Source of the DNA: Microbacterium caowuchunii
GTDB taxonomy: Bacteria > Actinomycetota > Actinomycetes > Actinomycetales > Microbacteriaceae
DNA: 64,000 bases
Direction: 5' to 3'
Assembly (NCBI RefSeq): GCF_008727755.1
Contig: NZ_CP044231.1
Coordinates: 2,542,001-2,606,000 of the forward strand
Translations under genes and position numbers: made by a program
In this document: in pieces, positions 11,331-24,996 of the stretch
How positions within the stretch are numbered: the first letter of the stretch is position 1
How the letters are laid out: each line of letters begins with the position of its first letter
Notes under the pieces: model-generated
What the model saw: only the letters and a program-made list of their open reading frames with translations
The model's database searches: none
Told to the model about the DNA's origin: nothing

Positions 11331-11627
11331 TCAGCGAACGACGACGGCGAGGACGTCGCGGGCCGAGAGCACGAGGTACTCGTCGGCGCCGAACTTGACC
11401 TCGGTCCCGCCGTACTTGCTGTAGATGACGCGGTCGCCGACGGCGACGTCGAGCGGAACGCGGTTGCCGTTGTCGTCGATGCGGCCGGGGCCGACAGCCA
11501 CGACCTCGCCCTCCTGGGGCTTCTCCTTGGCGGTGTCGGGGATGACCAGGCCACTAGCGGTGGTCTGCTCGGCCTCGACCTGCTGGATGACGATGCGGTC
11601 CTCGAGCGGCTTGATGGAAACCGACAC
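11331..11627 (-). CDS. groES: 10-kDa chaperonin GroES
   Basis: 98 residues, full length. Conserved features are [36 protein letters not shown] (the mobile loop that contacts GroEL) and [33 protein letters not shown]. It caps the GroEL folding chamber in the cytoplasm. No groEL gene follows, so this is a monocistronic groES; groEL is presumably elsewhere, as in many actinobacteria. Transcription is predicted from a sigma-A-type promoter overlapped by HrcA-type operators. Confidence 0.97.
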
Positions 11628-11668: not shown

Positions 11669-11695
11669 TTAGCACCCTCACACCGAGAGTGCTAA
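11669..11695. promoter_or_regulatory. CIRCE operator 1 (HrcA site)
   Basis: TTAGCACCC-N9-GAGTGCTAA, the 9-9-9 CIRCE architecture with one mismatch from the consensus TTAGCACTC-N9-GAGTGCTAA. It lies 42 bases before the groES start, downstream of the -10, where bound HrcA would block elongation or initiation. Confidence 0.9.
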
Positions 11696-11699
11696 CGCC

Positions 11700-11728
11700 A
11701 GTGTAGAGGCGTACTGGCACTCGTGCAA
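11700..11728 (-). promoter_or_regulatory. groES promoter
   Basis: On the complement, TTGCAC (11723-11728) and TACACT (11700-11705) are separated by exactly 17 bases, a good sigma-A-type promoter. The -35 lies inside CIRCE site 2, and site 1 lies just downstream of the -10. Confidence 0.75.
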
Positions 11729-11740
11729 CGCGAGTGCCAA
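11714..11740. promoter_or_regulatory. CIRCE-like operator 2
   Basis: CTGGCACTC-N9-GAGTGCCAA, again 9-9-9, overlapping the -35 of the groES promoter. It departs from consensus at a few outer positions, but both half-sites keep GCACTC/GAGTGC. Two HrcA sites bracketing one promoter suggest tight repression. Confidence 0.75.
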
Positions 11741-11905
11741 TGCGGGTCCACCCCGTAATCTCCCCTCCTCCCCCTAACGTCCCGGCGCGGCCGAGCCCGT
11801 CCGACGGAGGACCCGATCGTCCGGCCCCCTAATCTGCGGCGGACGTGTCCCCCAAATGGCCATGCGGTGGTATACAGGCCCTGTACCACTCCTGAGGGGG
11901 CAAAT
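11741..11905 (+). promoter_or_regulatory. Upstream region of the Hsp70-like/IniR-like operon
   Basis: Contains ACCCCGTAAT (11750-11759), CCCCCTAACGT (11770-11780, whose TAACGT could be a -10) and a second CCCCCTAAT (11825-11833). ACCCCGTAAT and CCTAACGTC recur upstream of the IniB-like gene, and CCCCCTAACG recurs upstream of the repeat-protein operon. These are candidate sites for the LuxR-type regulator encoded in this operon. Confidence 0.4.
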
Positions 11906-13696
11906 ATGGGTGAGTACGTTCTCGCCGTCGATGTCGGGACGTCTCGAGTGAGTGCTGCCGTCGCACGCAAGGCGACGACCGGGGAAATCAGCACCACGAG
12001 CGTCGCTCTGGGGCGCGCCCGGGACGCGGCGCCGGCGACCGTCTTCGTCGGCGAATCCGGGCTGCAGTTCGGGGATGCGGCGGACCGGCGCGCGCTCGTC
12101 CAGCCCGACCGGGCGCTGCGGGCCGTGAGCATCCGCATCGGCGACGATGCACCCTTCGTCGTGGGCGACCGCCGATTGATGCCGGCCGACGTCTTCGCCG
12201 CGATCGTCGGCTGGGTCGTCGAGTCCGTGAAGGACCGTGAGTCCGCCGATCCGTCCGCCATCGCGGTCACGGTCCCCGCGACCTGGGGCGACTACCGCAC
12301 CGACCTCGTCCGCGCCGCCCTGGAACGGGCGGGCCTGACCGGGGTGGCGCTGACCACCGGCGCCGAAGCCGCCGCAGCCGAGTACGAGACCGCCACCCCG
12401 CTCCGGCCGGGTCGCGCCCTCGCCGTCTACGATCTCGGCGGCGGCGGATTCGAGGCCGTCGTGCTGCGCAAGGAGCGCGGCTCCGACCGGCTGCGGATCG
12501 TCGGCACACCGCTCGCCGCAGATGACGCCGCCGGGGGGGACGTCGACGACGCGGTCCTCGCCCGGGTGCTCCAGTCGACCGGTCTCACGGCGACATCGCC
12601 CGAGTTCCTCGGCGCACCGCCGCTGGCCGCCGCCGCCCTGCGACGCGAGTGCACCGAGGCCAAGGAAGCCCTCTCCTTCGACTCGGAGACGGTTGTCCCG
12701 GTGATCGTCGGCCAGGGCGGCAGCGTGCGCCTCACCCGTGGCGAGCTCGAGGCGATGATCGAGCCGATCGTCGAGCGCACGATGGAGACTCTGACGCGGG
12801 TGATCGAATCGGCCCGCATCTCCGCCGCGGAGCTCGACGCGGTCCTGCTCGTGGGCGGATCGTCCCGGATTCCGCGGGTGGCGCAGATGCTGTCCGAGCG
12901 CTTCGACCGCCCCGTCGTCGTCGAGATCGATCCGAAGGCCGTGGTGACCGTGGGCGCCGCCCGCTCCCTCGGCGCGGCCACGCTCGACGCGGACACGACG
13001 ATACCCCTCGCCCACACGGCGATCGGGGCCGCGCCCGCGGTCATCGCCCGGCGACGGTCCTGGTTGCGTCGGATCGCTCCGGCGGCGGCGACCGGCACCG
13101 CGGTGCTGGTCCTGGCCGCCGGGATCGTCGTCTCGAGCGGCAGTTCGCTGGCATCGGGATCGACGTCGCTGACGCTCGCGGGCGGGAACAGCATCCTGTC
13201 TCTGAGCGCGCTCGAGGCACGCGCGGACCGGGGGGCGGCGATCGCCGCCCCTGCGTCGCCCGTCGCCGCGGAGGAGCCCGCGGACGACTGGACCACCCCT
13301 CGCACGGCCTCCCCCGACCGCAAGCCTGCAGCGTCCAGGTCCGCAGCGCCCGACACGCGCCGCGAGCCCGATCCCGAGAAACCGACGAGCTCGTCCTCGT
13401 CCAGCGGCACGACGCCCGCGAATCCCCGTACGCCGACCACCGAGCCGAGCGCCACGCCCCAGCCCTCCGCGACGACACCGCCCCCGGCGGTCGCGGAGGA
13501 CTCCGGCCCCGTCACCCCGGCGGATCCGGTCGTGACCCACCCCGATCCCGGACCCGATCCGGACACACCGCCCGCGCATACGCCGGAACCGCAGCCCGCA
13601 GCCGACCCCCCACCCGAACCCGAACCCGAACCGCAGCCCGATCCCAGCTCGTCGACGACGCAGTCGACGGAACCGGCCGAGGAACACGCGCCGTGA
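11906..13696 (+). CDS. Membrane-anchored Hsp70/DnaK-like ATPase without a substrate-binding domain
   Basis: 596 residues from ATG 11906 (GAGGGGGCAAAT upstream). Residues 1-370 form an actin/Hsp70-type nucleotide-binding domain: phosphate-1 motif VDVGTS (8-13), phosphate-2 motif YDLGGGGFE (175-183) and adenosine motif VGGSSRIP (316-323). Instead of the DnaK peptide-binding domain there is a basic stretch, one membrane helix (about 391-411) and a 185-residue Ser/Pro/Thr/Glu-rich tail (TPEPQPAADPPPEPEPEP) predicted to be outside the cell. This layout fits an ATP-driven sensor or wall-contacting protein better than a foldase. First gene of an operon with the IniR-like regulator, 28 bases upstream of it. 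The role is inferred from context only. Confidence 0.8.
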   Translation: MGEYVLAVDVGTSRVSAAVARKATTGEISTTSVALGRARDAAPATVFVGESGLQFGDAADRRALVQPDRALRAVSIRIGDDAPFVVGDRRLMPADVFAAIVGWVVESVKDRESADPSAIAVTVPATWGDYRTDLVRAALERAGLTGVALTTGAEAAAAEYETATPLRPGRALAVYDLGGGGFEAVVLRKERGSDRLRIVGTPLAADDAAGGDVDDAVLARVLQSTGLTATSPEFLGAPPLAAAALRRECTEAKEALSFDSETVVPVIVGQGGSVRLTRGELEAMIEPIVERTMETLTRVIESARISAAELDAVLLVGGSSRIPRVAQMLSERFDRPVVVEIDPKAVVTVGAARSLGAATLDADTTIPLAHTAIGAAPAVIARRRSWLRRIAPAAATGTAVLVLAAGIVVSSGSSLASGSTSLTLAGGNSILSLSALEARADRGAAIAAPASPVAAEEPADDWTTPRTASPDRKPAASRSAAPDTRREPDPEKPTSSSSSSGTTPANPRTPTTEPSATPQPSATTPPPAVAEDSGPVTPADPVVTHPDPGPDPDTPPAHTPEPQPAADPPPEPEPEPQPDPSSSTTQSTEPAEEHAP

Positions 13697-13724
13697 GCTG
13701 ACCGGGAGGCGACCGGAGGTACTC

Positions 13725-16250
13725 ATGACCGCGTCCGCACCTGATACGCAGAGCTCCCCCACCGAACTCGTCTGGACCAGGCTCGCGCATGCGCGGGTCC
13801 GTGAACTGACCGGCGATGCGTCCCGCGCGCCCCGCGCACTCGTGGTGGGCACGGCGGGCTCCGGGAAGTCGCTCGTCCTCCAGCATCTGCGCTCCACCTT
13901 GCGCAGCCGGGGCACGCACGTGGCGCTCGCGTCGTCGAACCCCGACCTCTCCACCCTCCCGCGCGACGCCGTGCTGTTCGTGGACGACGCTCATCTGATG
14001 ACCGAGTCCCAGCTCCTCGCACTGCAATCGCGCCTGGAGGATGACGAGGCGGGCGTCGTGCTGGCATGCCGGCCGTGGCCGCGGAGCGAACAGCTGCGCC
14101 TCATCGCGCGTCAGCTCGAGCAGGGCCGCCCCCCGATCGTGCTCGGCCACCTCGGCGCGGCGGAGTTGCGTTCCCACCTCGCCCGGGAAGGCACCACAGT
14201 GCCGGAGACCTGCCTCTCGGCGCTTCTCGAACTCTGCGGAGCGGTGACCTGGCTGGTGCGGGAGGCGCTCCTGGCCCACGGGACCGGGCCGTGCAACGAT
14301 CCCGAACATCGTGCGGTGCAGACGGCGCTCACCGAGATCGTGGCGGCTCGGCTGCACACGATCGAGCCTGCCGTCGCCGCGCGGGTGCAGAGCGAGTGCC
14401 TCAACGTCGCCGGAACGGCCGACGCGGACGCCGACGAGACCGCCATGGCCGGATACGCCGAGGGCCTGCTCCTGCGCAACGGCCGGCCCGTGCCCATCGT
14501 CCGCACCACGGTGCTGGCCACCATCCCCGTGGACCGTCTCATCGCGCTGCTGTCGGGCGGTAGGTCGCGCCCGAGCAACGAGGTGATGGAGCTGCTCACC
14601 GGACTGACCGACCCGCGCATCGCCAGCGCGCTGGTGGAGCTCGGCGACGCGATGCTGGAGCGCGATCCCGTCCGCGCCGCCGAGCTGTACCGGAACGCCG
14701 CCAGTTCCGGTGCCGACCCGACCGCCATCGCCGTGCGTCTCGCCCGCGCCGCCTGGACGCGCGGAGACCTGGACCGGGCCTGTGCCCTGATCGACAGCGC
14801 GGAAGTGCCGACCGGGCACCCGCTGCACGACGAGGCGGTCGACATCGCCGGATCGGTGTGGGCCGCCCGCGGATTCATGTCCATCAGCACGGACGCGTAC
14901 GCCTCCGGAGACATCTCCGACCCGCGGGTGGCCGCGCACGCCGCGATCGCCGCGCTCGGCTCGGGCGACGGCGACGCCCTGGAGTCCGCGCTGGGGATCG
15001 CCGCCCCTCTCCGCACCTACCCGTCGACCCTCTCCGTCTCCATGCGGCTCCTCGGTCGCGGCTTGCGGGCCGGGGTCACCCCGACGGCGACCGGAGCGCT
15101 GGACGAGATGGTCCGTGCCGCCGAACGGTACACCGAGTCCGGGGCGCACGGCCCGATCCCTGAGCTCCCCGCTGTGCTCGCCGCGCTGACCGCGGTGAAC
15201 ACCGGCGAGCTCGACGTCGCGCACGGCATCCTCACCACCGCCCACCGCGGCGGCCACGGCGGCGCCTGGGCGAAGCCGCGGCTGCTCCTCTGGACGGCCT
15301 GGGTGGCGCTCCGGCGTCAGCATCCCGACGAGACGCTCCTGCGCCTCGAGAACGTGCGTGCCATCCCCGGTGAGCTCAGTGCGCGGGACCGGCTGTTGCG
15401 GGATGCGGTGGTCATCGGGCACACCCGGCGCTACGGCGACCCGGCCACCCTCCCCACCGTGTGGCACCGGGTACGCGACGACGTGATGCACGTGCAGCCC
15501 GACCTGTTCAGCCTGTTCCCGGTGACGGAGTTCGTCACGACGGCGGCGCTCCTGGGCGACGCCGAGCGCTTCGAGAGCGCGTTCGCCGAGGCGCTCCGTC
15601 TCGTCGACCGGCTCGGAAACCCGCCGGCATGGTCCGCCCCCCTGCACTGGGCGGGCTTCCAGAAGGGGGTACTCCTCGGTCGGCCCGATGAGCTGACCCG
15701 GCATGCCCGCGCCCTGGTCACCGCGGCCCAGAGCAACCCGGTCGCGGCCGCGATGTCCCGGGCGGGGAAGGTCTGGACCGAAGCGCTCACGGGGGCCGTG
15801 GACGTCGACGCGATCGAGCACGCCGCCGCGCAACTCGCGAAGGTGGGTCTGGCCTGGGATGGCGCCCGCCTGGCCTCCCACGGCGCGGGCCGCTCGGAGG
15901 AGCGGCGCACGGTCGCGCGGCTCCTCTCCACCGCGCGTCAGTTGCACCCCAACCGCGAGGCGCCGGATGCCGAGCACCCGCAGCCGGCCAGCGCCGGCCG
16001 GGGGCCGAGCATGCTGAGCCCTCGCGAAATGGAGGTCGCCGCCCTCGTGATCAGCGGGAAGACCTACGCCGAGATCGGCGAGACGATCTTCATCTCACCG
16101 AGGACGGCCGAGCACCACATCGCCCGCATCCGCCGGCGTCTCGGGGCGACGTCACGGTCGGACCTCATCGCCCGGCTCCGGGCGATCGTGGAGGACCGCG
16201 ACGGCTCCGGTTCCGACGAGCATGGGGGATCCGCGTGGCGAACCCCGTAA
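13725..16250 (+). CDS. LuxR-family STAND-type ATPase regulator, IniR-like
   Basis: 841 residues. Walker A GTAGSGKS (42-49) and Walker B AVLFVDDAH (82-90) mark an N-terminal AAA/STAND ATPase. A long helical, TPR-like middle region follows, and a C-terminal LuxR/GerE helix-turn-helix begins LSPREMEVAALVISGKTYAEIG and continues ISPRTAEHHIARIRRRLGATSRSDLIA. This matches MalT-type signal-transduction ATPases, including mycobacterial IniR, which controls iniBAC under envelope stress. The adjacent iniBAC-like genes make the same job likely here. The inducer is unknown. ATG 13725 follows GGAGGTACTC. It is cotranscribed with the Hsp70-like gene and ends 112 bases before the IniB-like gene. Confidence 0.85.
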   Translation: MTASAPDTQSSPTELVWTRLAHARVRELTGDASRAPRALVVGTAGSGKSLVLQHLRSTLRSRGTHVALASSNPDLSTLPRDAVLFVDDAHLMTESQLLALQSRLEDDEAGVVLACRPWPRSEQLRLIARQLEQGRPPIVLGHLGAAELRSHLAREGTTVPETCLSALLELCGAVTWLVREALLAHGTGPCNDPEHRAVQTALTEIVAARLHTIEPAVAARVQSECLNVAGTADADADETAMAGYAEGLLLRNGRPVPIVRTTVLATIPVDRLIALLSGGRSRPSNEVMELLTGLTDPRIASALVELGDAMLERDPVRAAELYRNAASSGADPTAIAVRLARAAWTRGDLDRACALIDSAEVPTGHPLHDEAVDIAGSVWAARGFMSISTDAYASGDISDPRVAAHAAIAALGSGDGDALESALGIAAPLRTYPSTLSVSMRLLGRGLRAGVTPTATGALDEMVRAAERYTESGAHGPIPELPAVLAALTAVNTGELDVAHGILTTAHRGGHGGAWAKPRLLLWTAWVALRRQHPDETLLRLENVRAIPGELSARDRLLRDAVVIGHTRRYGDPATLPTVWHRVRDDVMHVQPDLFSLFPVTEFVTTAALLGDAERFESAFAEALRLVDRLGNPPAWSAPLHWAGFQKGVLLGRPDELTRHARALVTAAQSNPVAAAMSRAGKVWTEALTGAVDVDAIEHAAAQLAKVGLAWDGARLASHGAGRSEERRTVARLLSTARQLHPNREAPDAEHPQPASAGRGPSMLSPREMEVAALVISGKTYAEIGETIFISPRTAEHHIARIRRRLGATSRSDLIARLRAIVEDRDGSGSDEHGGSAWRTP

Positions 16251-16362
16251 TACCCAGGGGCACTCCCTAGTCCCCTCCCGGGGACCGGGGGGCTATCCCC
16301 GACGCGGGGCGACCCCGCGAAGTCCTAACGTCAGATGAGGACACCACCCGAAGGAGGCAGGC
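16242..16362 (+). promoter_or_regulatory. Promoter region of the IniB-like gene
   Basis: TAACGT (16326-16331) is a plausible -10 placed 31 bases before ATG 16363, leaving a short leader with GAAGGAGGCAGGC. ACCCCGTAAT (16242-16251, over the regulator's stop codon) and CCTAACGTC (16324-16332) match the region before the Hsp70-like gene. GC-rich dyads (CCCCTCCCGGGGA; GCGGGGCGACCCCGC) lie between. Confidence 0.45.
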
Positions 16363-17097
16363 ATGAGCGTCACTTTGGCAACCATGGCCGATGCGTTGAT
16401 CGAATTCATCCTGAGCCTGTTGCGCGACCCCGACGCCGCTGCCGAGTTCGATGCCGATCCGGGCGGGGCGATGTCGTCGCGCGGCCTGGCGGACGTGCGC
16501 TACGAGGACGTGTGCGCCGTGGCCCCCGTCGTCGTCGATCGGCCCGCCGTCGCACCGCGGCCCGACCCCGCCCCGGCCCCGGCCCCGCAGCCGAGCCCGG
16601 ACCCCGTCATCAACGAGATCCGCAGCATCGTCAACAACTTCGCCTGGATCGATGACCGCGACACGATCGTCGACCAATCGGTCAACCAGAACATCTGGGC
16701 CGAGGGAGACGTGACGCAGAACTTCGACCAGGCCGCCATCGTCGCCTCCGGGGACGACGCGATCGCCGCCGGCGACGACGTCGACATCGACCAGTCGCGC
16801 GACGACTCGACCACGATCACCGCCGGCGGGGATGCGAACGTCGGCAACGAGACGACGTCGAACACGACGAACGGCTCCTACAACGAGAGCACGGATGCGT
16901 CGACGACGACGGACGCTTCGGACACGACCATCGCGGTGGACTCGGGCAACGACTCGTCCACCGACACGACGGCGACCGACTCGTTCGACAGCTCGACGAC
17001 GACCTATACGGACAGCACGAGCGACACGGACTCGACGGTCGTCTTCGACTCGACCGACACCCTGATCGCCGACACCACGGCCGATGACCAATTCTGA
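16363..17097 (+). CDS. IniB N-terminal-domain protein with a repeat-core C-terminal region
   Basis: 244 residues. Residues 1-60 (LIEFILSLLRDPDAAAEFDADPGGAMSSRGLADV...VCAVAPVV) match the IniB N-terminal domain of actinobacterial iniBAC loci. A Pro-rich linker leads to a core containing DTIVDQSVNQNIWAEGDV and IVASGDDAIAAGDDV, shared with the two repeat proteins at 21347 and 22320. A long Asp/Ser/Thr tail follows (DSTSDTDSTVVFDSTDT). There is no signal peptide or membrane helix. In mycobacteria iniB is induced with iniA and iniC by wall-acting drugs; its biochemical role is unknown. It overlaps the next gene by 14 bases. GAAGGAGGCAGGC before the ATG is a strong ribosome site. Confidence 0.8.
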   Translation: MSVTLATMADALIEFILSLLRDPDAAAEFDADPGGAMSSRGLADVRYEDVCAVAPVVVDRPAVAPRPDPAPAPAPQPSPDPVINEIRSIVNNFAWIDDRDTIVDQSVNQNIWAEGDVTQNFDQAAIVASGDDAIAAGDDVDIDQSRDDSTTITAGGDANVGNETTSNTTNGSYNESTDASTTTDASDTTIAVDSGNDSSTDTTATDSFDSSTTTYTDSTSDTDSTVVFDSTDTLIADTTADDQF

Positions 17098-17791
17098 CCA
17101 GAACGACAAGAGCAACACACCGACCGTCGCCCTGGTCGGCAAGCCGGTCACGCTCAGCGCGATCCGCCGGGCCGAGGCCCAGCGGATCGCGGCCGAGCGC
17201 GCGGCCGCCGAGGCCGACGCCAACCGCGAGGCCCCGCCCCGCCCGGGTCTCGTGGACCCCACCGGCGCTCCCGTCGTGGTCGCACTGCCCCCGCCGGTCA
17301 CGGTCCGCTTCAGTCAGTTCTTCTGGATCCTGAGCCTGCTCGCGGGCGCCGTCGGCGTGGTCTACCTCTTCATCATCCGCAAACCCCATCTGGAGGACAT
17401 CGTCGCGATCGTGAAGGAGGTGGATCCGGCCCGAGCCGAGGAGACCTACACGACCGTCGCCGACATCATCTCCTGGTCGCTGTTCGGCGTGCTGGTGGCC
17501 GTCCTGCTCGTGCAGGTCACGGCACTGGTCTCGTACGCGAACCGGCGGCCGGGTATCCGATGGTGGATGCTGGGCGCCCTCGTGGTGCTCGTGGGCGTGT
17601 TCTTCGCCGCCCGCGAACTCGTCGCCTTCGGTGACCGCGGCGCGCCCCTCGCCTACCTCCTCGCGACGCAGATCGGCCTGCTCGTGCTGGGCTTCCTCTT
17701 CGCGCTCCTGCCGCCGGCGCTGCGCTGGACGGCGCGCGGGCATGACGTCGCGCACCGGATCACGGGCGAGAAGATCACCGGGCGCTCGTAG
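17084..17791 (+). CDS. Four-helix membrane protein of the ini-like locus
   Basis: 235 residues, no family recognised. An approximately 75-residue polar N-terminus with an Ala/Glu-rich helix (AIRRAEAQRIAAERAAAEADANRE) precedes about four membrane segments (ILSLLAGAVGVVYLFII; ISWSLFGVLVAVLLVQVTALV; WWMLGALVVLVGVFFAA; LLATQIGLLVLGFLFALLPPAL). Overlap with the IniB-like gene by 14 bases implies coupled translation. It is a candidate membrane anchor for the cytoplasmic IniB-like or dynamin-like proteins; this is inferred from position only. Confidence 0.7.
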   Translation: MTNSDQNDKSNTPTVALVGKPVTLSAIRRAEAQRIAAERAAAEADANREAPPRPGLVDPTGAPVVVALPPPVTVRFSQFFWILSLLAGAVGVVYLFIIRKPHLEDIVAIVKEVDPARAEETYTTVADIISWSLFGVLVAVLLVQVTALVSYANRRPGIRWWMLGALVVLVGVFFAARELVAFGDRGAPLAYLLATQIGLLVLGFLFALLPPALRWTARGHDVAHRITGEKITGRS

Positions 17792-17873
17792 CCGCGCCGG
17801 TCCCCGATACCGCCGCGCGCCGGGGATGAGGACCCGGCCCTGCGTGCCCCGTCCGGCCCCGGGGAAGCACGGT

Positions 17874-19325
17874 TCACGAGGCGGAGGTCAGCACCCCCTC
17901 GGCGCTGCGGACGACCAGCTGATAGACGGCCACAGCGTCCCGCGGCACCAGGGGCGACTCGGAGTACGTGCGCCACCGGCCGACGATCTCTCCCACCCGC
18001 GCCCGCACCTCCGATTCCGAGGCGCTCTCGCTCATGTCGAGCCGACGCGCACGCGTCACACCCTCACCGCCGATGATGCGCACGGCCTCCTGCCATTCGT
18101 CCGCGGCCAGGGGCGAATCCCTCGTCCGCAGGCGCGCGAGGAGGTTCAGCTCGCGCAGCTCGTGCGCATTGGCGGCCGCGCGCTCGATGCCGTGACGGAT
18201 GCGGTCGACGCCCGGACGGGGACGGTCGCGGAGCAGGGATTCCAGTGCTTGCAGGACCCAGCGCGACTTCAGCGCAGCGGCGCGCGAGCGGAACTGGTCG
18301 GCGATGAGCCGTTCGAGTTCACGCAGTCCGCTCTGTGCGACCATCCGGGAGGCGAGTTCCGACGACGTCGACGCGCCGGCCAGCACGAGCGTCGCCCCGA
18401 GCCGGACGCCGAACACCCCGAACCGTTCGAGCAGGGCCCGGCGCTGCGCGGCCGGAGGGACCGGTGCGGGACGGGGCTGGACGAACCGGTCCGCGGAGAT
18501 GAGCAGACGCTCCCGCTCCGCGCGGTCGAGTCCCGCGAGAGCGCGGAACACCGCGAACTCTTCCTCCCGGAGGGTGCGCGCCGCTTCGGCGAGCAGGCCG
18601 GCGACGGGGACGACGGCGAGTGCCAGCCCCTTCAGCACCCCCTCCCGGCGGTACCTCTCGACCACGCGGGCGGCGGACAGCAGCGCCTCGATCCGCCCGG
18701 ACCCGATCTCGTCCGATCGAGACAGCACGGCGATGGCGTTCACGGTGGGCGCGACGCCGGGTTCGGCGCCGCGCAGCGCCTCCAGGAACGCCAGGTCCAC
18801 CGCGTGCAGGTGGCGGAGCAGATAGATCACCGCATCCGCTTCGGACGGGGTGTCCGCCGAGGTGAGGAACCGGCGCGACAGCGCGGAGGTCCCCACCGAG
18901 AGGGAGCCGATGCCCGGAGTGTCGATGAGGACGTGCGATCGGAGTGCCTCCGCCGGCCAGCCGACCTCGATGTGTTCGATGTCCGCCGCGGACAGGGTGC
19001 CGAGGTCGAACTCGATGCGCCCTTCTCTGCGGATGACCGGCATTCGCCGGGTGGACCCGTCGCACAGGAACGCCGTGATGCGTGCGGTGTGGGCGAACCG
19101 GTACCAGATGACCGTGCGCGTGCACTCCCCCGCATCCGTCGGCGCGATCTCCTCACCGATGAGGGCGTTGAGGAGCGTCGATTTCCCCGCTTTCACCATC
19201 CCCGCCACGGCGATGCGTACCGGCTCGCGCAGGCGCGTGTCGATCTCGTCCAGGATGCGGCCGGCGATCGGGTCGTCCGCATAGACCGCACGCACGTCGG
19301 CGAGCAGTTCCGCCGTGACCGTCAC
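17874..19325 (-). CDS. Dynamin-like GTPase, IniC-like
   Basis: 483 residues from GTG 19325, in a GTGA overlap with the preceding GTPase gene. GTPase motifs are G1 GMVKAGKS (42-49), G3 DTPGIG (135-140) and a G4-like SRSDE (202-206). The N-terminal helix region and the helical C-terminal half are typical of bacterial dynamin-like proteins. By length and by position directly after the longer partner it corresponds to mycobacterial IniC. Such proteins remodel membranes using GTP. The G4 motif is SRSD rather than T/NKxD, as in many members of this family. It is convergent with the membrane protein gene, with 82 bases between. Confidence 0.82.
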   Translation of the reverse strand: MTVTAELLADVRAVYADDPIAGRILDEIDTRLREPVRIAVAGMVKAGKSTLLNALIGEEIAPTDAGECTRTVIWYRFAHTARITAFLCDGSTRRMPVIRREGRIEFDLGTLSAADIEHIEVGWPAEALRSHVLIDTPGIGSLSVGTSALSRRFLTSADTPSEADAVIYLLRHLHAVDLAFLEALRGAEPGVAPTVNAIAVLSRSDEIGSGRIEALLSAARVVERYRREGVLKGLALAVVPVAGLLAEAARTLREEEFAVFRALAGLDRAERERLLISADRFVQPRPAPVPPAAQRRALLERFGVFGVRLGATLVLAGASTSSELASRMVAQSGLRELERLIADQFRSRAAALKSRWVLQALESLLRDRPRPGVDRIRHGIERAAANAHELRELNLLARLRTRDSPLAADEWQEAVRIIGGEGVTRARRLDMSESASESEVRARVGEIVGRWRTYSESPLVPRDAVAVYQLVVRSAEGVLTSAS

Positions 19326-21229
19326 GCCCCCTGCCCTCCGTCCCACTGCTCGAGCTGGGGCAGGGACGCCCGCAGCTGACGTGTGCGCTGATGCTGGGCA
19401 CGCAACTGGGCCACGCGGCCCTCCCGGTCGCTCGAGTAGTTCGCCGCTGCCTGCTTGGCGGCCAGCACCGAATCGGACAGGGACCGGTGGAGCTCGTCCG
19501 CGATGGACCCGAAGTGGTCGCGCGCCGTGCGCTGAACGAGCCGCAGCCGGTCCTTGAGCTGCTTCCCGGTCTGGAAGACCACGTCGTCGATGTGCCGACG
19601 CACCAGGTTCTTGGCCTCCGCCTGACGACGGGCCAGCCGCGTGGCCATGTCCTCGCGATAGGCCTTGCGGCCCACGACGACACCCGCGAGCAGCGACAGC
19701 GGGTTGAGCAGGCTGAGCCCGACGACGCTCGTCGCGAGTCCGACCATGAGCACCCCGCCGTACGAGCCACGCACCCCCACGTAGATCTTCTCCGCCGCCG
19801 ATAGCCGCCCCTCGTCCAGGAGCTGCAGCGGCTCCACCGGGTCGAGCACGCCATCCGTCGCCCCCACCTCGATGTAGGGGATCAGCGTGTCGTCGCGCAG
19901 GAACTCGTCCGCCACGCGCTCGGTCAGCCATCGCGCACGCTCAGAGGTCCACACGAAGTTCTCCGCGACCACCGTCGCGACCCGCTCGTCGAGCCACTGG
20001 GCGATCTGGCTCCAGATCGGGCCGGGATCGCCGGCGTCGATCGCCGCCTCGGCCTCCCGCTGCACCTTCCGGAGCCGGTCGCGGAGGTCGTGCTCGGTGT
20101 CCGACATGAGGTCGGCCACGCCGTCACTCAGCGTCACCTGCCAGCGTGCCGACCGTCCCCGGAACTCATCGGCGCGGGCCTTGGCGTCCTCGAGCCGCAG
20201 GATCATGGCGGGTGTGCGCTCGGGATGCAGGAGCGCGTTCAGCTCCGAGTCGATCGTCATCGACAGCTGGTCGAGCACCGAGCCGAGATCGTGCACGGTG
20301 CTGCGCTGGTGCAGCGACTCGGCGTGCCCCAGCACCTCACGGCGCAGATGCGCGACGAGGGCGGGGAACCCGGACTCGTCGTTGAGTTCGCGGTCCTGCT
20401 CCTTCGCCGCCAGCAACCGCAGATCGCTGGACACGGCGAACAGCGGGATCTTGCCCACGTCGCCGAGGTGCGAGCGGTCGATGCGCTCGATCTGCTGCCA
20501 CTGCGGATACACGTCGGTCTTCGAGAGCACAGCCGCCACGTTGGGCGAGATGCGCATCGCGTGGTCGAGGAACTGCATCTCGGATTCGGTGTACTCCTGG
20601 GATGCGTCGGAGACGAGCAGCACCGCGTGGGCCGTCGACAGGGCCGCCAGCGTGGTCAGCGACCGCGTCGACTCCTGTCCGCCGACGCCGGGGGAATCGA
20701 CCAGGCGCAGTCCGCCCTTGAGGATCTCGCGAGGCAGGAACACCTCGGCTCCGACGACATCCCCGTCCAGCTCGGCCGCGCCGTCCGCGGACACGTAGTC
20801 CTCCAGCCGGTCCAGCGGCACCGACACCCGGGTGATGTCCGCGTCCGTGCCGCCGTGCGGGCGCACCATGACCGCCGCGGACGGTTCCTCGCCGTACCCC
20901 ACGGAAGTGGGCACGGTGGTGGCGACGTCGTCGTCCACCAGGCACGCGGGGGCGTTCACGAGCGCGTTCACCAGCTTGCTCTTGCCCTGTTTGAACTGCC
21001 CGACGATCGCCACCCGGACATGCGGATCGAGCAGGCGCGCACGCGCCTGCTCGAGCCGGTTCACGAGATCCCCACGGCCCAGGGCGCCGGACATCGCCTG
21101 TACGCGCGTGATGATCTGGATCAGCTCCGCCCCCGAGTCGGAAGCCGGCCCACCCGGCGGATCCTGCGTCCCTGTTGTTGCCGCACCGGGCGGGTTCTGG
21201 ATCGTCACGTCGTCTCGGCTCGGCACCAT
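19322..21229 (-). CDS. Dynamin-like GTPase, IniA-like
   Basis: 635 residues. G1 is GQFKQGKS (77-84), G3 DSPGVGG (178-184) and G4 SKTD (236-239). Helical segments flank a hydrophobic hairpin (YGGVLMVGLATSVVGLSLL; LSLLAGVVVGRKAY) that would be the membrane-inserting tip. A basic coiled C-terminal region (RLARRQAEAKNLVRR) follows. Mycobacterial IniA is an established bacterial dynamin-like protein that mediates membrane fission. ATG 21229 is used because GGAGGAGGCG lies directly upstream; a GTG five codons earlier is possible. The downstream GTPase overlaps by four bases, so the two are likely made in similar amounts and may form hetero-oligomers. Confidence 0.85.
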   Translation of the reverse strand: MVPSRDDVTIQNPPGAATTGTQDPPGGPASDSGAELIQIITRVQAMSGALGRGDLVNRLEQARARLLDPHVRVAIVGQFKQGKSKLVNALVNAPACLVDDDVATTVPTSVGYGEEPSAAVMVRPHGGTDADITRVSVPLDRLEDYVSADGAAELDGDVVGAEVFLPREILKGGLRLVDSPGVGGQESTRSLTTLAALSTAHAVLLVSDASQEYTESEMQFLDHAMRISPNVAAVLSKTDVYPQWQQIERIDRSHLGDVGKIPLFAVSSDLRLLAAKEQDRELNDESGFPALVAHLRREVLGHAESLHQRSTVHDLGSVLDQLSMTIDSELNALLHPERTPAMILRLEDAKARADEFRGRSARWQVTLSDGVADLMSDTEHDLRDRLRKVQREAEAAIDAGDPGPIWSQIAQWLDERVATVVAENFVWTSERARWLTERVADEFLRDDTLIPYIEVGATDGVLDPVEPLQLLDEGRLSAAEKIYVGVRGSYGGVLMVGLATSVVGLSLLNPLSLLAGVVVGRKAYREDMATRLARRQAEAKNLVRRHIDDVVFQTGKQLKDRLRLVQRTARDHFGSIADELHRSLSDSVLAAKQAAANYSSDREGRVAQLRAQHQRTRQLRASLPQLEQWDGGQGA

Positions 21230-21271
21230 CGCCTCCTCCGGCACCGTCCAGCGGTGCCTCTCGTGTCAGGT

Positions 21272-21309
21272 GCCGATGACCCCGACGGCGGACCGGCGGG
21301 GTCATCGGC
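21272..21309 (-). terminator. Intra-operon hairpin before the dynamin-like genes
   Basis: Perfect 13-bp stem GCCGATGACCCCG / CGGGGTCATCGGC with a 12-base loop, 37 bases after the stop of the 303-residue repeat protein and 42 bases before the IniA-like start. It probably acts as a partial terminator, lowering GTPase expression relative to the repeat proteins. Confidence 0.6.
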
Positions 21310-21346
21310 GCAGGAGTCGCGGAACGACCCCTGCCGGGGATGTGGA

Positions 21347-22258
21347 TCAGGCTGGAGGGAGGTCCACATCCGAGCTGTCGACGATGATCGCCGTGCTGCT
21401 GTCCCAGATCACGTTGGCATCGATGTCCCAGTCGTTCTCGCTGGAGATCGCGATCTCGTCGTTGAACGAGTTCGCGGCCTCGTAGTTGTCGGAGTAGTCG
21501 TTGAACGAGTCGCGGATCTCCCACTCCTGCGAGGCATCCGTCGTCTGCGAGAAGTCCTCCTCGACGTTGTAGGAATCCACCACCATGTCCACGGTCGTGG
21601 TGTTCCCCATGTTGATGTCCCCGCCGCCGATGATGGTGGTCGAGTCGTCGAGCGACTGGCGGATGCTGACGTCGTCGCCGGCGGCGATGGCCCCGTCCCC
21701 GGAGGCCACGACCGCGTTGCTCGCACTGGCCTGGCCGGCCGCGAAGGCATCGATGTTCTGGTTCACCGACTGGTCGACGATCGTCGCACGCCCGTCCAGG
21801 AAGACGTCGCCGCCGCCGCCGGCGCCGCCCACTCCGCCCGCTCCGCCACCGACGTTGATGTTGCCGAAGCCGGTGTTGTAGTCACGGTTGCCGACCTGGA
21901 TGGAGTGATCGTCGGTGGAGGTCCAGCTGAACGAGTTGCCCGAATCGTTCGTCGACGCGTCGGTCCACTGGTTGTAGGAGTCCCGCACCGAGGTGTCGGA
22001 AGCATCCACGACCGAGTTGTCCTCGGACGTGTTGTACGAGTCCTCGATGCGCGTCTCGGTCTCGGTGACGACGTCGTTGGAGTCGAACGTGGCGGAGTTG
22101 TCCACGTCGAACACGGCGTTACCGCTGTCGTTCTGGGAGTTGTCCGTGTTCCCGACGTTGTCGAGCCCGACGTTGAGGTTGGCGTTGTTGGTGGTGGAGG
22201 TGTTGAAGGAGTCCCGTGCCCGGGAGTTGAAGGAGTCCTCGAAGTCGTCGAATGCCAT
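21347..22258 (-). CDS. DS[FY]N-repeat acidic protein 1 (shares the IniB-like core)
   Basis: 303 residues, family not recognised. Composition is dominated by Asp, Asn, Ser and Thr, with seven copies of [DN]S[FY]N (opening FDDFEDSFN, then RDSFN, EDSYN, RDSYN, DSYN, RDSFN, NSFN). A Gly-rich hinge (VGGGAGGVGGAGGGGD) near the middle is followed by the core ATIVDQSVNQNI and AVVASGDGAIAAGDDV, also present in the IniB-like protein and in repeat protein 2. No signal peptide or membrane segment is seen. It may form a beta-solenoid or fibrous assembly, inferred from the regular polar repeats. It follows repeat protein 2 after a hairpin. Confidence 0.75.
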   Translation of the reverse strand: MAFDDFEDSFNSRARDSFNTSTTNNANLNVGLDNVGNTDNSQNDSGNAVFDVDNSATFDSNDVVTETETRIEDSYNTSEDNSVVDASDTSVRDSYNQWTDASTNDSGNSFSWTSTDDHSIQVGNRDYNTGFGNINVGGGAGGVGGAGGGGDVFLDGRATIVDQSVNQNIDAFAAGQASASNAVVASGDGAIAAGDDVSIRQSLDDSTTIIGGGDINMGNTTTVDMVVDSYNVEEDFSQTTDASQEWEIRDSFNDYSDNYEAANSFNDEIAISSENDWDIDANVIWDSSTAIIVDSSDVDLPPA

Positions 22259-22287
22259 GATCCTGTTCGCTTTCTCTGCGCTGGAGT

Positions 22288-22313
22288 GGCCCGGCCGTGG
22301 CGGCGGCCGGGCC
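22288..22313 (-). terminator. Hairpin between the two repeat-protein genes
   Basis: Perfect 10-bp stem GGCCCGGCCG / CGGCCGGGCC with a six-base loop, seven bases beyond the stop of repeat protein 2 and 30 bases before the start of repeat protein 1. Likely a partial terminator or mRNA-stabilising stem. Confidence 0.55.
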
Positions 22314-22319
22314 GAGGTA

Positions 22320-23213
22320 TCAGAAGGAGTCGTCCACCACTGCGGCGCCGAAGCTGTCCACGATGGCGTTCACGTCGATGTCGACGACCGTGCTCTCGGC
22401 GTAGTCGACGGTGTCGTTGAACGAGTCCACCGCCGAGTAGTTGTCCGAGAAGTCGTTGTACGAACCGCGGATGTCGATGTCCATCGACTCGTCCGTGTAG
22501 GTCGACTCGTCGGTGTAGGTGTTGTAGGAACCGACCGTCGTGTTGATGGTCGTCTCGTTGCCGAGGTTCACATCGCCGCCGAGCGAGACGATCGTCGTCG
22601 AGGAGTCGAGGTTCGTCTCGATCCGCACGTCGTCGCCCGCCGCGACCGCGTCGTCACCCGAGGCGACCACGGCGTTGCTGGCAGAGGACTGGAAGACGAC
22701 GCCGGCGTCGATGTTCTGGTTGACCGACTGGTCGACGATGGTGGCCCGTGCGTCCAGGAACAGGTCGCCGCCGCCGCCCGCCGCCGCAGCCCCGCCGCCG
22801 CCGACGGTCACGTCGCCGAAGCCGGTGTTGTAGTCGCGGTTGCCGACCTGGATGGAGCGGTCGTCGGCGGAGGTCAGCGTCCAGGTGTTCCCGGAGTTGT
22901 TCGTGCTGTTGTCGGTCAGCTCGTTGTAGGAGTCGTCGATCCGGGTGTCCGAGTAGTCGCGGATGGAGTTGTCGACGACGTCGTTGTAGGAGTCCTCGAT
23001 GTCGGTCTCGGTCCGGGTGTAAGTGTCGTTCGAGTCGACCGTCAGCGTGTCGTCGATGTCCACGCCCAGGTTGTTGCTGTTGTTCGTCGAGCTGTCCGTG
23101 TTGCCGGAGTTCTCGATGCCGAAGTCGGTGGTCAGCGTGTTGTCGTTGACGGTGTTGAACGAGTCGATCGCGGTCGCGTTGAACGAATCACGGTAGTCGT
23201 CGAAGAGTGGCAT
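22320..23213 (-). CDS. DS[FY]N-repeat acidic protein 2 (shares the IniB-like core)
   Basis: 297 residues from ATG 23213 (MPLFDDYRDSFN), aligned with the start of its paralogue; an ATG nine codons upstream also has a ribosome site (GAGAAGGGGC) and cannot be excluded. Seven [DG]S[FY]N units occur, with a Gly/Ala hinge (GGGGAAAAGGGG), then ATIVDQSVNQNI, AVVASGDDAVAAGDDV and GGDVNLGNETTIN. Length, repeat count and order match repeat protein 1 throughout, so the pair arose by tandem duplication. First gene of the minus-strand unit that continues to the dynamin-like genes. It has no predicted export signal. Confidence 0.75.
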   Translation of the reverse strand: MPLFDDYRDSFNATAIDSFNTVNDNTLTTDFGIENSGNTDSSTNNSNNLGVDIDDTLTVDSNDTYTRTETDIEDSYNDVVDNSIRDYSDTRIDDSYNELTDNSTNNSGNTWTLTSADDRSIQVGNRDYNTGFGDVTVGGGGAAAAGGGGDLFLDARATIVDQSVNQNIDAGVVFQSSASNAVVASGDDAVAAGDDVRIETNLDSSTTIVSLGGDVNLGNETTINTTVGSYNTYTDESTYTDESMDIDIRGSYNDFSDNYSAVDSFNDTVDYAESTVVDIDVNAIVDSFGAAVVDDSF

Positions 23214-23336
23214 GATCGCTTTCCCTCTTTCCGGGGCCATGCCCCTTCTCTACGGTTGTGGGGTTCACGGTACGAGCGCCGCCGGTCACGCACATCGGGG
23301 ACGTCTCCCTGGCCTCACCCCCTCGGGTGCGGGTAA

Positions 23337-23355
23337 CCCCCTAACGCGATAGGGG
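23337..23355. promoter_or_regulatory. Candidate operator before the repeat-protein operon
   Basis: CCCCCTAACG (23337-23346), part of an inverted repeat CCCCTA-N6-TAGGGG (23338-23355), 124 bases upstream of the ATG at 23213. CCCCCTAA also appears twice before the Hsp70-like gene. It also lies upstream of the divergent methyltransferase gene. Confidence 0.4.
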
Positions 23356-24606: not shown

Positions 24607-24996
24607 TCACCCCGGCGGCGTCTCGCGCCGCCGCCGGAATGCCGCCGCGGCGTTGAGGAAGGCGACGACCGCGAGTGCGGTGAGGGCCAGGCAGGCCACG
24701 ACGGACCCGAACACCAGCACCGGGTTCCCGGCGAGGGCGAACAGACCGATCACCGCGGCGCCCGGGATGAGCAGGCAGGCGAAGACGCCGGCGATGATGC
24801 TCGCCTCCGGTGCGCCCTGCCCCCAGCCGGGGCGCACCGGCTGCGCGGGCTCGGCGGGCGGCCCTGCGACCGCGGGCGTTGCGGCAGGCCGCTGCCGGTC
24901 GGTCCACGCGGTGCCGTCCCACCAGCGTTGCCAGCCCGGCACGCCGGCGTCGTACCAGCCGGCGGGGGCGGAGGGCTGAGGATCACTCATGCTCAT
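24607..24996 (-). CDS. DUF2510 small membrane protein
   Basis: 129 residues. N-terminal DUF2510 motif PAGWYDAGVPGWQRWWDGTAWTD, a Pro/Ala linker, then two membrane helices (IIAGVFACLLIPGAAVIGLFAL; VFGSVVACLALTALAVVAFL) and a basic end. DUF2510 is an actinobacterial module often attached to membrane or ESX-associated proteins; its role is unknown. GGAGG lies five bases before ATG 24996. Last gene of the ESX-substrate-like cluster. Confidence 0.8.
   Translation of the reverse strand: MSMSDPQPSAPAGWYDAGVPGWQRWWDGTAWTDRQRPAATPAVAGPPAEPAQPVRPGWGQGAPEASIIAGVFACLLIPGAAVIGLFALAGNPVLVFGSVVACLALTALAVVAFLNAAAAFRRRRETPPG

Follow-up and report, generated by a model that had tools for sequence, protein, structure and literature searches.

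How wall damage reaches IniR in the well-known drug response of mycobacteria is a question raised again by a locus of Microbacterium caowuchunii in which genes for an IniR-like regulator and two dynamins are accompanied by one for a putatively membrane-anchored Hsp70-like protein. The window analysed (64,000 nucleotides of contig NZ_CP044231.1, positions 2,542,001 to 2,606,000) contains this locus at 11906-23213, a span filled by eight genes, four on the plus strand followed by four on the minus strand (Table 1). They encode the Hsp70-like protein, the IniR-like regulator, a protein with an IniB N-terminal domain, a membrane protein, IniC- and IniA-like dynamin GTPases, and two repeat proteins rich in D, S and N (DSN1 and DSN2). 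On balance, we favour reading the locus as an actinobacterial member of the iniBAC type, in which IniR would switch a dynamin module through CCCCTA operators, the IniB and DSN proteins would form a scaffold, and the Hsp70-like protein would gate IniR. A first-pass annotation, made from the sequence without database searches, had described the same eight genes and called them iniBAC-like. Open reading frames and domain or profile matches confirmed their presence, order and extent, and the match to IniA, the IniB domain, the homology to IniR and the conserved neighbourhood bore out the identity.

Dynamins and regulator

The IniA-like protein matched IniA of Mycobacterium smegmatis (PDB 6j72) over its length (residues 41-623, E 7.4e-126), the printed frame having about 37 extra N-terminal residues, and Dynamin_N was matched in both the IniA-like (E 2e-16) and the IniC-like protein (E 1e-12). 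IniA is described as binding lipid through the loop 480-492, mainly by R488 and K489, hydrolysing GTP slowly and cutting membranes (PMC6715688). The stretch of the window protein aligned with this loop is GRKAYREDM, the equivalence of R488 and K489 assuming a two-residue numbering offset; GR[KR]AY was present in at least 54 of 87 IniA-like frames, and the G1 motif in 87/87 IniA-like and 87/87 IniC-like frames. The IniC-like gene lies downstream of the IniA-like gene and overlaps its 3' end, the most likely start being a GTG near 19328 within this overlap rather than the first ATG of the long open frame. A profile built from relatives of the IniC-like protein scored 483-497 bits on the genes in iniC position of L129, L131, L133, L134, L135, L137 and L138.

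The IniR-like protein matched NCBIfam NF038181 with 320.6 bits (E 2.3e-95), short of that model's equivalog cut-off of 750, and is therefore a homologue rather than an equivalog of IniR. It also carries a GerE (LuxR-type) helix-turn-helix (E 1.9e-13) and gave a weak nSTAND match below the cut-off of that model.

Conservation of the neighbourhood

Two samples of relatives were compared. The first consists of 75 named loci from the best 80 of 145 matches to DSN2; because similarity to DSN2 governed their choice, it is not a neutral sample as regards IniB and DSN. Of these loci, 56/75 had all six families (Hsp70-like, IniR, IniB, membrane protein, IniC and IniA); among the 68 named loci with both dynamins, IniR was found in 65, IniB in 65, the membrane protein in 64 and the Hsp70-like protein in 56, many loci being cut by contig or fetch ends. 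The commonest full arrangement, the window counted, was Hsp-IniR-IniB-Mem facing DSN-IniA-IniC (43/57), followed by Hsp-IniR-IniB-IniA-IniC facing Mem (11/57), which contains the classical iniBAC order on one strand. The window has no single iniB-iniA-iniC operon: its iniB-like and membrane-protein genes lie together on the opposite strand, and the DSN genes precede iniA. In 57/57 arrangements the Hsp70-like gene lay immediately before iniR on the same strand.

The second sample comprised 28 regions reached through the IniB domain, 20 of which hold both dynamins (from 19 genomes, two regions coming from G231). Conservation in related genomes, on which the earlier proposal had been made to depend, was evident here: beside these 20 dynamin pairs, an Hsp70-like gene was found in 20 and IniR in 19, with IniB in 17 (by its own profile), the membrane protein in 7 and DSN in 2. 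The remaining eight regions are a locus at a contig end (L128), lone IniB genes (L130, L132 and L136) and weak matches (L127, L141, L143 and L147). The family L128-L138 is probably mycobacterial, since the IniR frame of L133 scored 1277.6 bits on the equivalog model NF038181. Two loci, L040 (titled Planococcus sp.) and L052 (titled as a Mycobacterium sp. metagenome-assembled genome), are of Microbacterium type, and may be mislabelled or contaminated.

Most counts exclude fragments L001-L009 (except L004), L033, L070 and L085-L092; L004, which is the DnaK of the genome itself, served as a reference, and L089 stayed in the catalytic-residue alignment. L125 and L126, taken as the same genomes as L068 and L048, were included in the neighbourhood counts, the catalytic-residue alignment and the core-domain profile count, and excluded from the upstream-region and box counts, the repeat clusters and the G1 and loop motif counts.

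IniB-domain matches were obtained in 44/149 same-genus genomes, 9/149 genomes of the order and 18/396 of the phylum (11 of the 18 above cut-off). Such patchiness within the genus, together with a STAND-like NTPase and dynamins, would also suit an anti-phage defence system with a STAND-type sensor and dynamin effectors, and the IniA-like protein matched the PADLOC models LeoBC (E 2e-20) and LeoA (E 4e-14), the matches of the IniC-like protein being weaker. We consider this explanation very improbable: the match to IniA is far stronger, the sole other PADLOC match was a CARF-protein model over the helix-turn-helix of IniR, and the locus is directly flanked by groES and a gene for a THUMP-like methyltransferase (defence genes farther out were not searched for).

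The Hsp70-like protein

Pfam HSP70 (PF00012) matched residues 101-365 of the 609-residue open frame (E 1.9e-35, 122.6 bits against a cut-off of 20.6). The match ended at profile position 369 of 599 and, in all 11 proteins scanned, matches stopped near position 370-380 with no substrate-binding domain matched. A hydrophobic segment predicted to span the membrane follows at about residues 403-429 of the printed frame, such a helix being present after the nucleotide-binding domain in 43/44 Hsp70-like frames, and the Pro-rich tail has 41 Pro in 179 residues. At the positions that we take to be K70, E171, T199 and D201 of DnaK, the window protein has S, G, G and E, so that its initial designation as a membrane ATPase is not warranted.

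All four residues were kept in 40/86 aligned Hsp70-like frames (the genome's own DnaK included), 18/86 being cut at one or more of the positions. Frames were termed degenerate when at least two of the four residues were changed, mild changes (K to R, D to E) counted, which gave a clear label for 64 of 87 IniA rows. On the IniA tree of these 64 rows, the 40 intact and 24 degenerate labels need six changes, at least four of them forced by well supported branches, although some long branches leave single positions unsure. That the gene persists as its active site is lost points to binding or a structural role.

That role might lie on the effector side, the actin-like fold assembling or disassembling IniB/DSN polymers or the dynamin coat rather than regulating IniR. 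Retention of the Hsp70-like gene with every dynamin pair of the second sample, even apart from IniR (L139, L140, L142 and L144-L146), fits this alternative, as does its place after iniC as a second copy in L133 and as the sole copy found in L137. The missing substrate-binding domain, the repeated loss of catalytic residues and the invariant position directly before iniR in the full arrangements argue the other way, and we rate an effector-side role as possible but not probable. Second Hsp70-like genes were also seen beyond iniR in L134 and L135, with CCCCTA repeats upstream in L134 and a repeat close by in L135.

The P-loop pattern was absent from the IniR-like frame in 16/41 loci with an intact Hsp70-like protein vs 2/24 with a degenerate one, which is a lead only: Arthrobacter-type loci make up more than half of the 16, one genome is present twice (L126), and each frame was taken from one stop codon to the next. 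The Arthrobacter-type loci whose IniR-like frame lacks the pattern are L044, L048, L055, L059, L062, L069, L072, L079, L121 and L122.

Two CIRCE-type inverted repeats, 45 bp apart, separate groES from the Hsp70-like gene (Table 1), and HrcA is encoded in the genome. CIRCE is the usual operator of groES, and the sites most simply belong to that divergent gene; a CIRCE-like site was present in 6/31 Hsp upstream regions and none in 25/31. The repeats in the window could also act on the Hsp70-like promoter.

IniB, DSN and membrane proteins

NF038175 matched the IniB domain with 71 bits (cut-off 40). The two repeat proteins contain 6 and 5 copies of the motif DS[FY]N, compared with a shuffle mean of 0.05, and the IniB-domain protein of the window contains no exact copy. 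A core domain, VDQSVNQNI...GGDVN, is common to the IniB-domain protein, DSN1 and DSN2. A profile of the DSN2 core found it in 159 IniB-, DSN1- and DSN2-type frames and in L139, L140 and L142 (same phylum, other class), whereas 0 of 17 IniB frames from the mycobacterial family had it. DSN1 and DSN2 gave no match to Pfam or NCBIfam models. A protein search yielded 185 relatives; readable names among the 120 listed were hypothetical for DSN-like proteins and otherwise IniB N-terminal domain proteins. The DSN alignment comprised 47 of 76 DSN frames, L075 being excluded for a masked stretch. The structure model of DSN2 was poor and unusable, with only about residues 150-200 reaching a predicted local distance difference test score (pLDDT) of 63-77, which fits either disorder or a shallow alignment. 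The membrane protein was modelled as a bundle of long helices, hydrophobic by sequence, plus an N-terminal helix.

Candidate operators

IniR of M. tuberculosis (Rv0339c) binds directly upstream of iniBAC by chromatin immunoprecipitation (PMC5760070). The analysis took in those upstream regions whose start codon could be placed by a motif rule (64 IniB genes, 50 DSN operons and 31 Hsp genes); near-identical regions were removed for comparisons with shuffles and retained for spacing and direct-repeat clusters. Two boxes, aACCCC(C)TA and GGGGnnnCCCCGA[CT]GC, recurred upstream of IniB, at a spacing of 30-34 bp in 34/43 pairs (64 regions, not de-duplicated, overlapping A-box starts counted apart). 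CCCCTA was present in 39/55 de-duplicated IniB regions (shuffles mean 7.1, max 14) and CCCCGA[CT]G in 33/55 (mean 5.2, max 11); upstream of the DSN operon the figures were 15/39 for CCCCTA (mean 4.8, max 11) and 26/39 for the second box, CCCCGA[CT]G (mean 4.0, max 9). A strict two-part pattern matched 26 times in the 149 same-genus genomes, 21 times directly upstream of IniB (18) or DSN (3) and five times elsewhere, and in G603 and G552 it stood at both promoters of one locus.

Direct-repeat clusters were concentrated in the same places: 50/51 lay within 350 bp upstream of IniB (42), Hsp (6) or DSN (2), windows that make up 4.7% of the sequence and gave 0.27 clusters on average when shuffled, while the remaining one lay about 215 bp before the second Hsp70-like frame of L134. 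This placement holds within loci, not genomes, because IniB regions had served to define the box and ini genes to select the loci. In the mycobacterial family, a triple CCCCTA repeat, 17-18 and 15 bp apart, precedes the first IniB-type gene of L129, L131, L133, L134 and L135, two boxes precede that of L137, L138 and L128, and a tandem 8 bp apart precedes the second IniB-type gene of L129, L131, L133, L134, L135 and L137. The distant loci L139, L140, L142 and L146 have CCCCTA repeats 11-12 bp apart, and L144 and L145 one box each.

The spacing between first and second box in the window is 54 bp upstream of the iniB-like gene and 55 bp upstream of DSN2. CCCCBTAAY occurred 6 times in the 64 kb, 5 times within the three upstream regions, for 0.47 expected, a figure that is descriptive only, the pattern having been drawn from these regions.

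We regard the CCCCTA boxes as candidate IniR sites. They might instead be bound by a different regulator or form part of the promoter: in many loci one box precedes the iniB start codon by about 66 bp, and HpoR is a second regulator on the iniBAC promoter of M. bovis BCG (PMC13413693). HpoR, however, binds there at CAGAC-N7-TGTCTG, a palindrome unlike the CCCCTA direct repeats. Lone IniB genes off the main locus carry the 8-bp CCCCTA tandem (L130 at 9225, L132 at 9008 and L136 at 9435), which speaks for a regulator specific to the system, and we judge sites other than those of IniR to be rather unlikely. Coregulation of three transcription units, as first proposed, gains from the boxes common to the IniB and DSN-dynamin promoters and is weakened for the Hsp-IniR unit, where boxes were seen in the window and in some lineages but CCCCTA was absent from 16/27 upstream regions.

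Proposed mechanism

We propose an envelope-stress module that IniR would switch on and whose effectors would be the IniA- and IniC-type dynamins, binding and remodelling the cell membrane. IniR would activate both the unit of IniB and the membrane protein and the DSN-IniA-IniC unit through CCCCTA-type promoter boxes, and the low-complexity IniB and DSN proteins, with one common core domain, may act as a scaffold or coat that recruits the GTPases. The Hsp70-like protein would be an actin-fold nucleotide-binding protein, anchored in the membrane and lacking a substrate-binding domain. It would keep IniR inactive there, much as MalK holds MalT inactive in E. coli, until damage to the wall reaches the Pro-rich tail of the Hsp70-like protein, so that the two proteins together would sense the wall. 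We infer the contact between them, the topology of the tail and the nature of the signal. The comparison supplies a candidate operator and, for wall-damage signalling, a candidate in the predicted membrane-anchored Hsp70-like protein, which is retained alongside IniR and the dynamins. It suggests, at the level of sequence, that this protein and a common DNA switch belong to the system. To our knowledge Microbacteriaceae do not make mycolic acids, which suggests that the system is independent of them.

Several observations weigh against this reading. Among the 20 dynamin-pair regions of the second sample, a DSN match was absent in 18 and a membrane-protein match in 13, and these two are therefore better seen as lineage parts than as core. 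L035 (11135-20345) holds Hsp, IniR, IniB and membrane-protein genes with no dynamin in the next 9 kb. Among de-duplicated Hsp upstream regions, 11/27 had CCCCTA (shuffles mean 2.9, max 9) and 16/27 had none; some of the 11 also lie upstream of a divergent IniB gene. The strict pattern shows no clear excess over its reversed control (26 vs 21 matches), only its placement being special (the control matches were not placed), and its 18 matches upstream of IniB compare with 44/149 genomes that have the IniB domain. Direct-repeat clusters were found in only 33/102 loci. The window itself lacks both the strict two-part pattern (0 matches in G000) and a direct-repeat cluster, its looser boxes having been found by inspecting it first.

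More speculatively, and with real doubt on our part, mycobacterial iniBAC may be one branch of a phylum-wide actinobacterial membrane-repair system with a core of Hsp70-like protein, IniR, IniA and IniC and with CCCCTA operators. The Hsp70-like protein would be a membrane-tethered nucleotide sensor gating IniR that became a pseudoenzyme several times, and the IniB/DSN core-domain proteins an inducible low-complexity scaffold placing the dynamins on damaged membrane. Literature searches, with most subscription journals outside their scope, found no report of an iniBAC-type system outside mycobacteria, of the phylum-wide spread of the Hsp70-like gene, its repeated decay or the DSN family, or of an IniR box or CCCCTA boxes (paired with GGGGnnnCCCCGA or as direct repeats) at IniB or DSN-IniA-IniC promoters.

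Layout and genomic site

In the window, as in L051 and L120, the locus is flanked by groES and the methyltransferase gene. These two genes adjoin in 12/12 same-genus genomes chosen for having no IniB-domain match, an empty site at which they are close together in 11 and about 1.2 kb apart in L189. A THUMP-like frame was present in 35/75 named loci. In seven of them (L037, L039, L049, L073, L076, L077 and L082) groES and this frame both lie on the DSN side; these loci are beyond groES, and there are therefore at least two placements of the locus next to it. A small protein matching DUF2510 is encoded beside the methyltransferase gene of the window.

Table 1. Positions of genes and candidate regulatory sites in the window
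Feature	Position	Strand	Remarks
groES	11331-11627	-	Left neighbour of locus; PF00166, E 8e-37
CIRCE-type inverted repeats	11669-11695; 11714-11740		Between groES and Hsp70-like gene
Candidate boxes, Hsp70-like gene	11751-11833	+	Three CCCC[CG]TAA[CT] boxes upstream, at 11751, 11770 and 11825
Hsp70-like protein	11906-13696	+	Nucleotide-binding domain, one hydrophobic membrane segment, Pro-rich C-terminal tail, degenerate catalytic residues
IniR-like regulator	13725-16250	+	P-loop NTPase, middle part, LuxR-type helix-turn-helix
Candidate operator, iniB-like gene	16243-16304	+	CCCCGTAAT at 16243 (overlaps iniR end), CCCTAG at 16265, CCCCGACG at 16297
IniB N-terminal-domain protein	16363-17097	+	With VDQSVNQNI...GGDVN core domain
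Membrane protein	17084-17791	+	Overlaps iniB-like gene
IniC-like dynamin GTPase	17874-19328	-	
IniA-like dynamin GTPase	19322-21244	-	G1 motif, GRKAY loop
DSN1	21347-22258	-	D/S/N-rich repeat protein; IniB core domain, no IniB N-terminal domain match
DSN2	22320-23213	-	DSN1 paralogue, 59-60% identical
Candidate operator, DSN-IniA-IniC unit	23293-23355	-	CCCCTA (minus, 23355-23350), CCCCCTAAC (plus, 23337-23345), CCCCGATG (minus, 23300-23293)
THUMP-like methyltransferase			Right neighbour of locus
Small protein	24607-24996	-	Matches DUF2510; beside methyltransferase gene

Comparison with known systems

The locus resembles mycobacterial iniBAC with IniR in bringing together IniR-, IniB-domain-, IniA- and IniC-type genes, and loci with a mycobacterial-type IniR likewise have CCCCTA repeats upstream of their IniB-type genes. 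It differs in that the IniB gene is paired with a membrane-protein gene and separated from the dynamins, the place of IniB upstream of IniA is taken by two DSN proteins, and its IniB protein has a core domain absent from 17/17 mycobacterial-family IniB frames. Boot et al. (2017, PMC5760070) describe IniR as a trehalose-responsive regulator that controls iniBAC and binds upstream of it, report synteny of the locus in several mycobacteria, and note a structural similarity of M. marinum IniR to domain III of MalT. The Hsp70-like partner, put forward as new in the first-pass annotation, was already in print as a dnaK-like gene beside iniR in M. smegmatis (Boot et al. 2017, PMC5760070), a likeness to the window that extends to the 20/20 dynamin-pair regions.

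M. smegmatis IniA (PDB 6j72/6j73) shares with the window protein the G1 motif and the GRKAY loop, the longer N-terminus of the window frame apart. LeoABC of enterotoxigenic E. coli likewise has paired bacterial dynamins, its LeoBC match being far weaker than that to IniA. DnaK and HscA have the nucleotide-binding domain in common with the Hsp70-like protein, which differs by its hydrophobic helix and Pro-rich tail, the lack of a matched substrate-binding domain and its degenerate catalytic residues. The MalT/MalK pair of E. coli likewise couples a regulator with a membrane-associated nucleotide-binding protein encoded with it; MalK, however, is an ABC ATPase and not of the Hsp70 fold.

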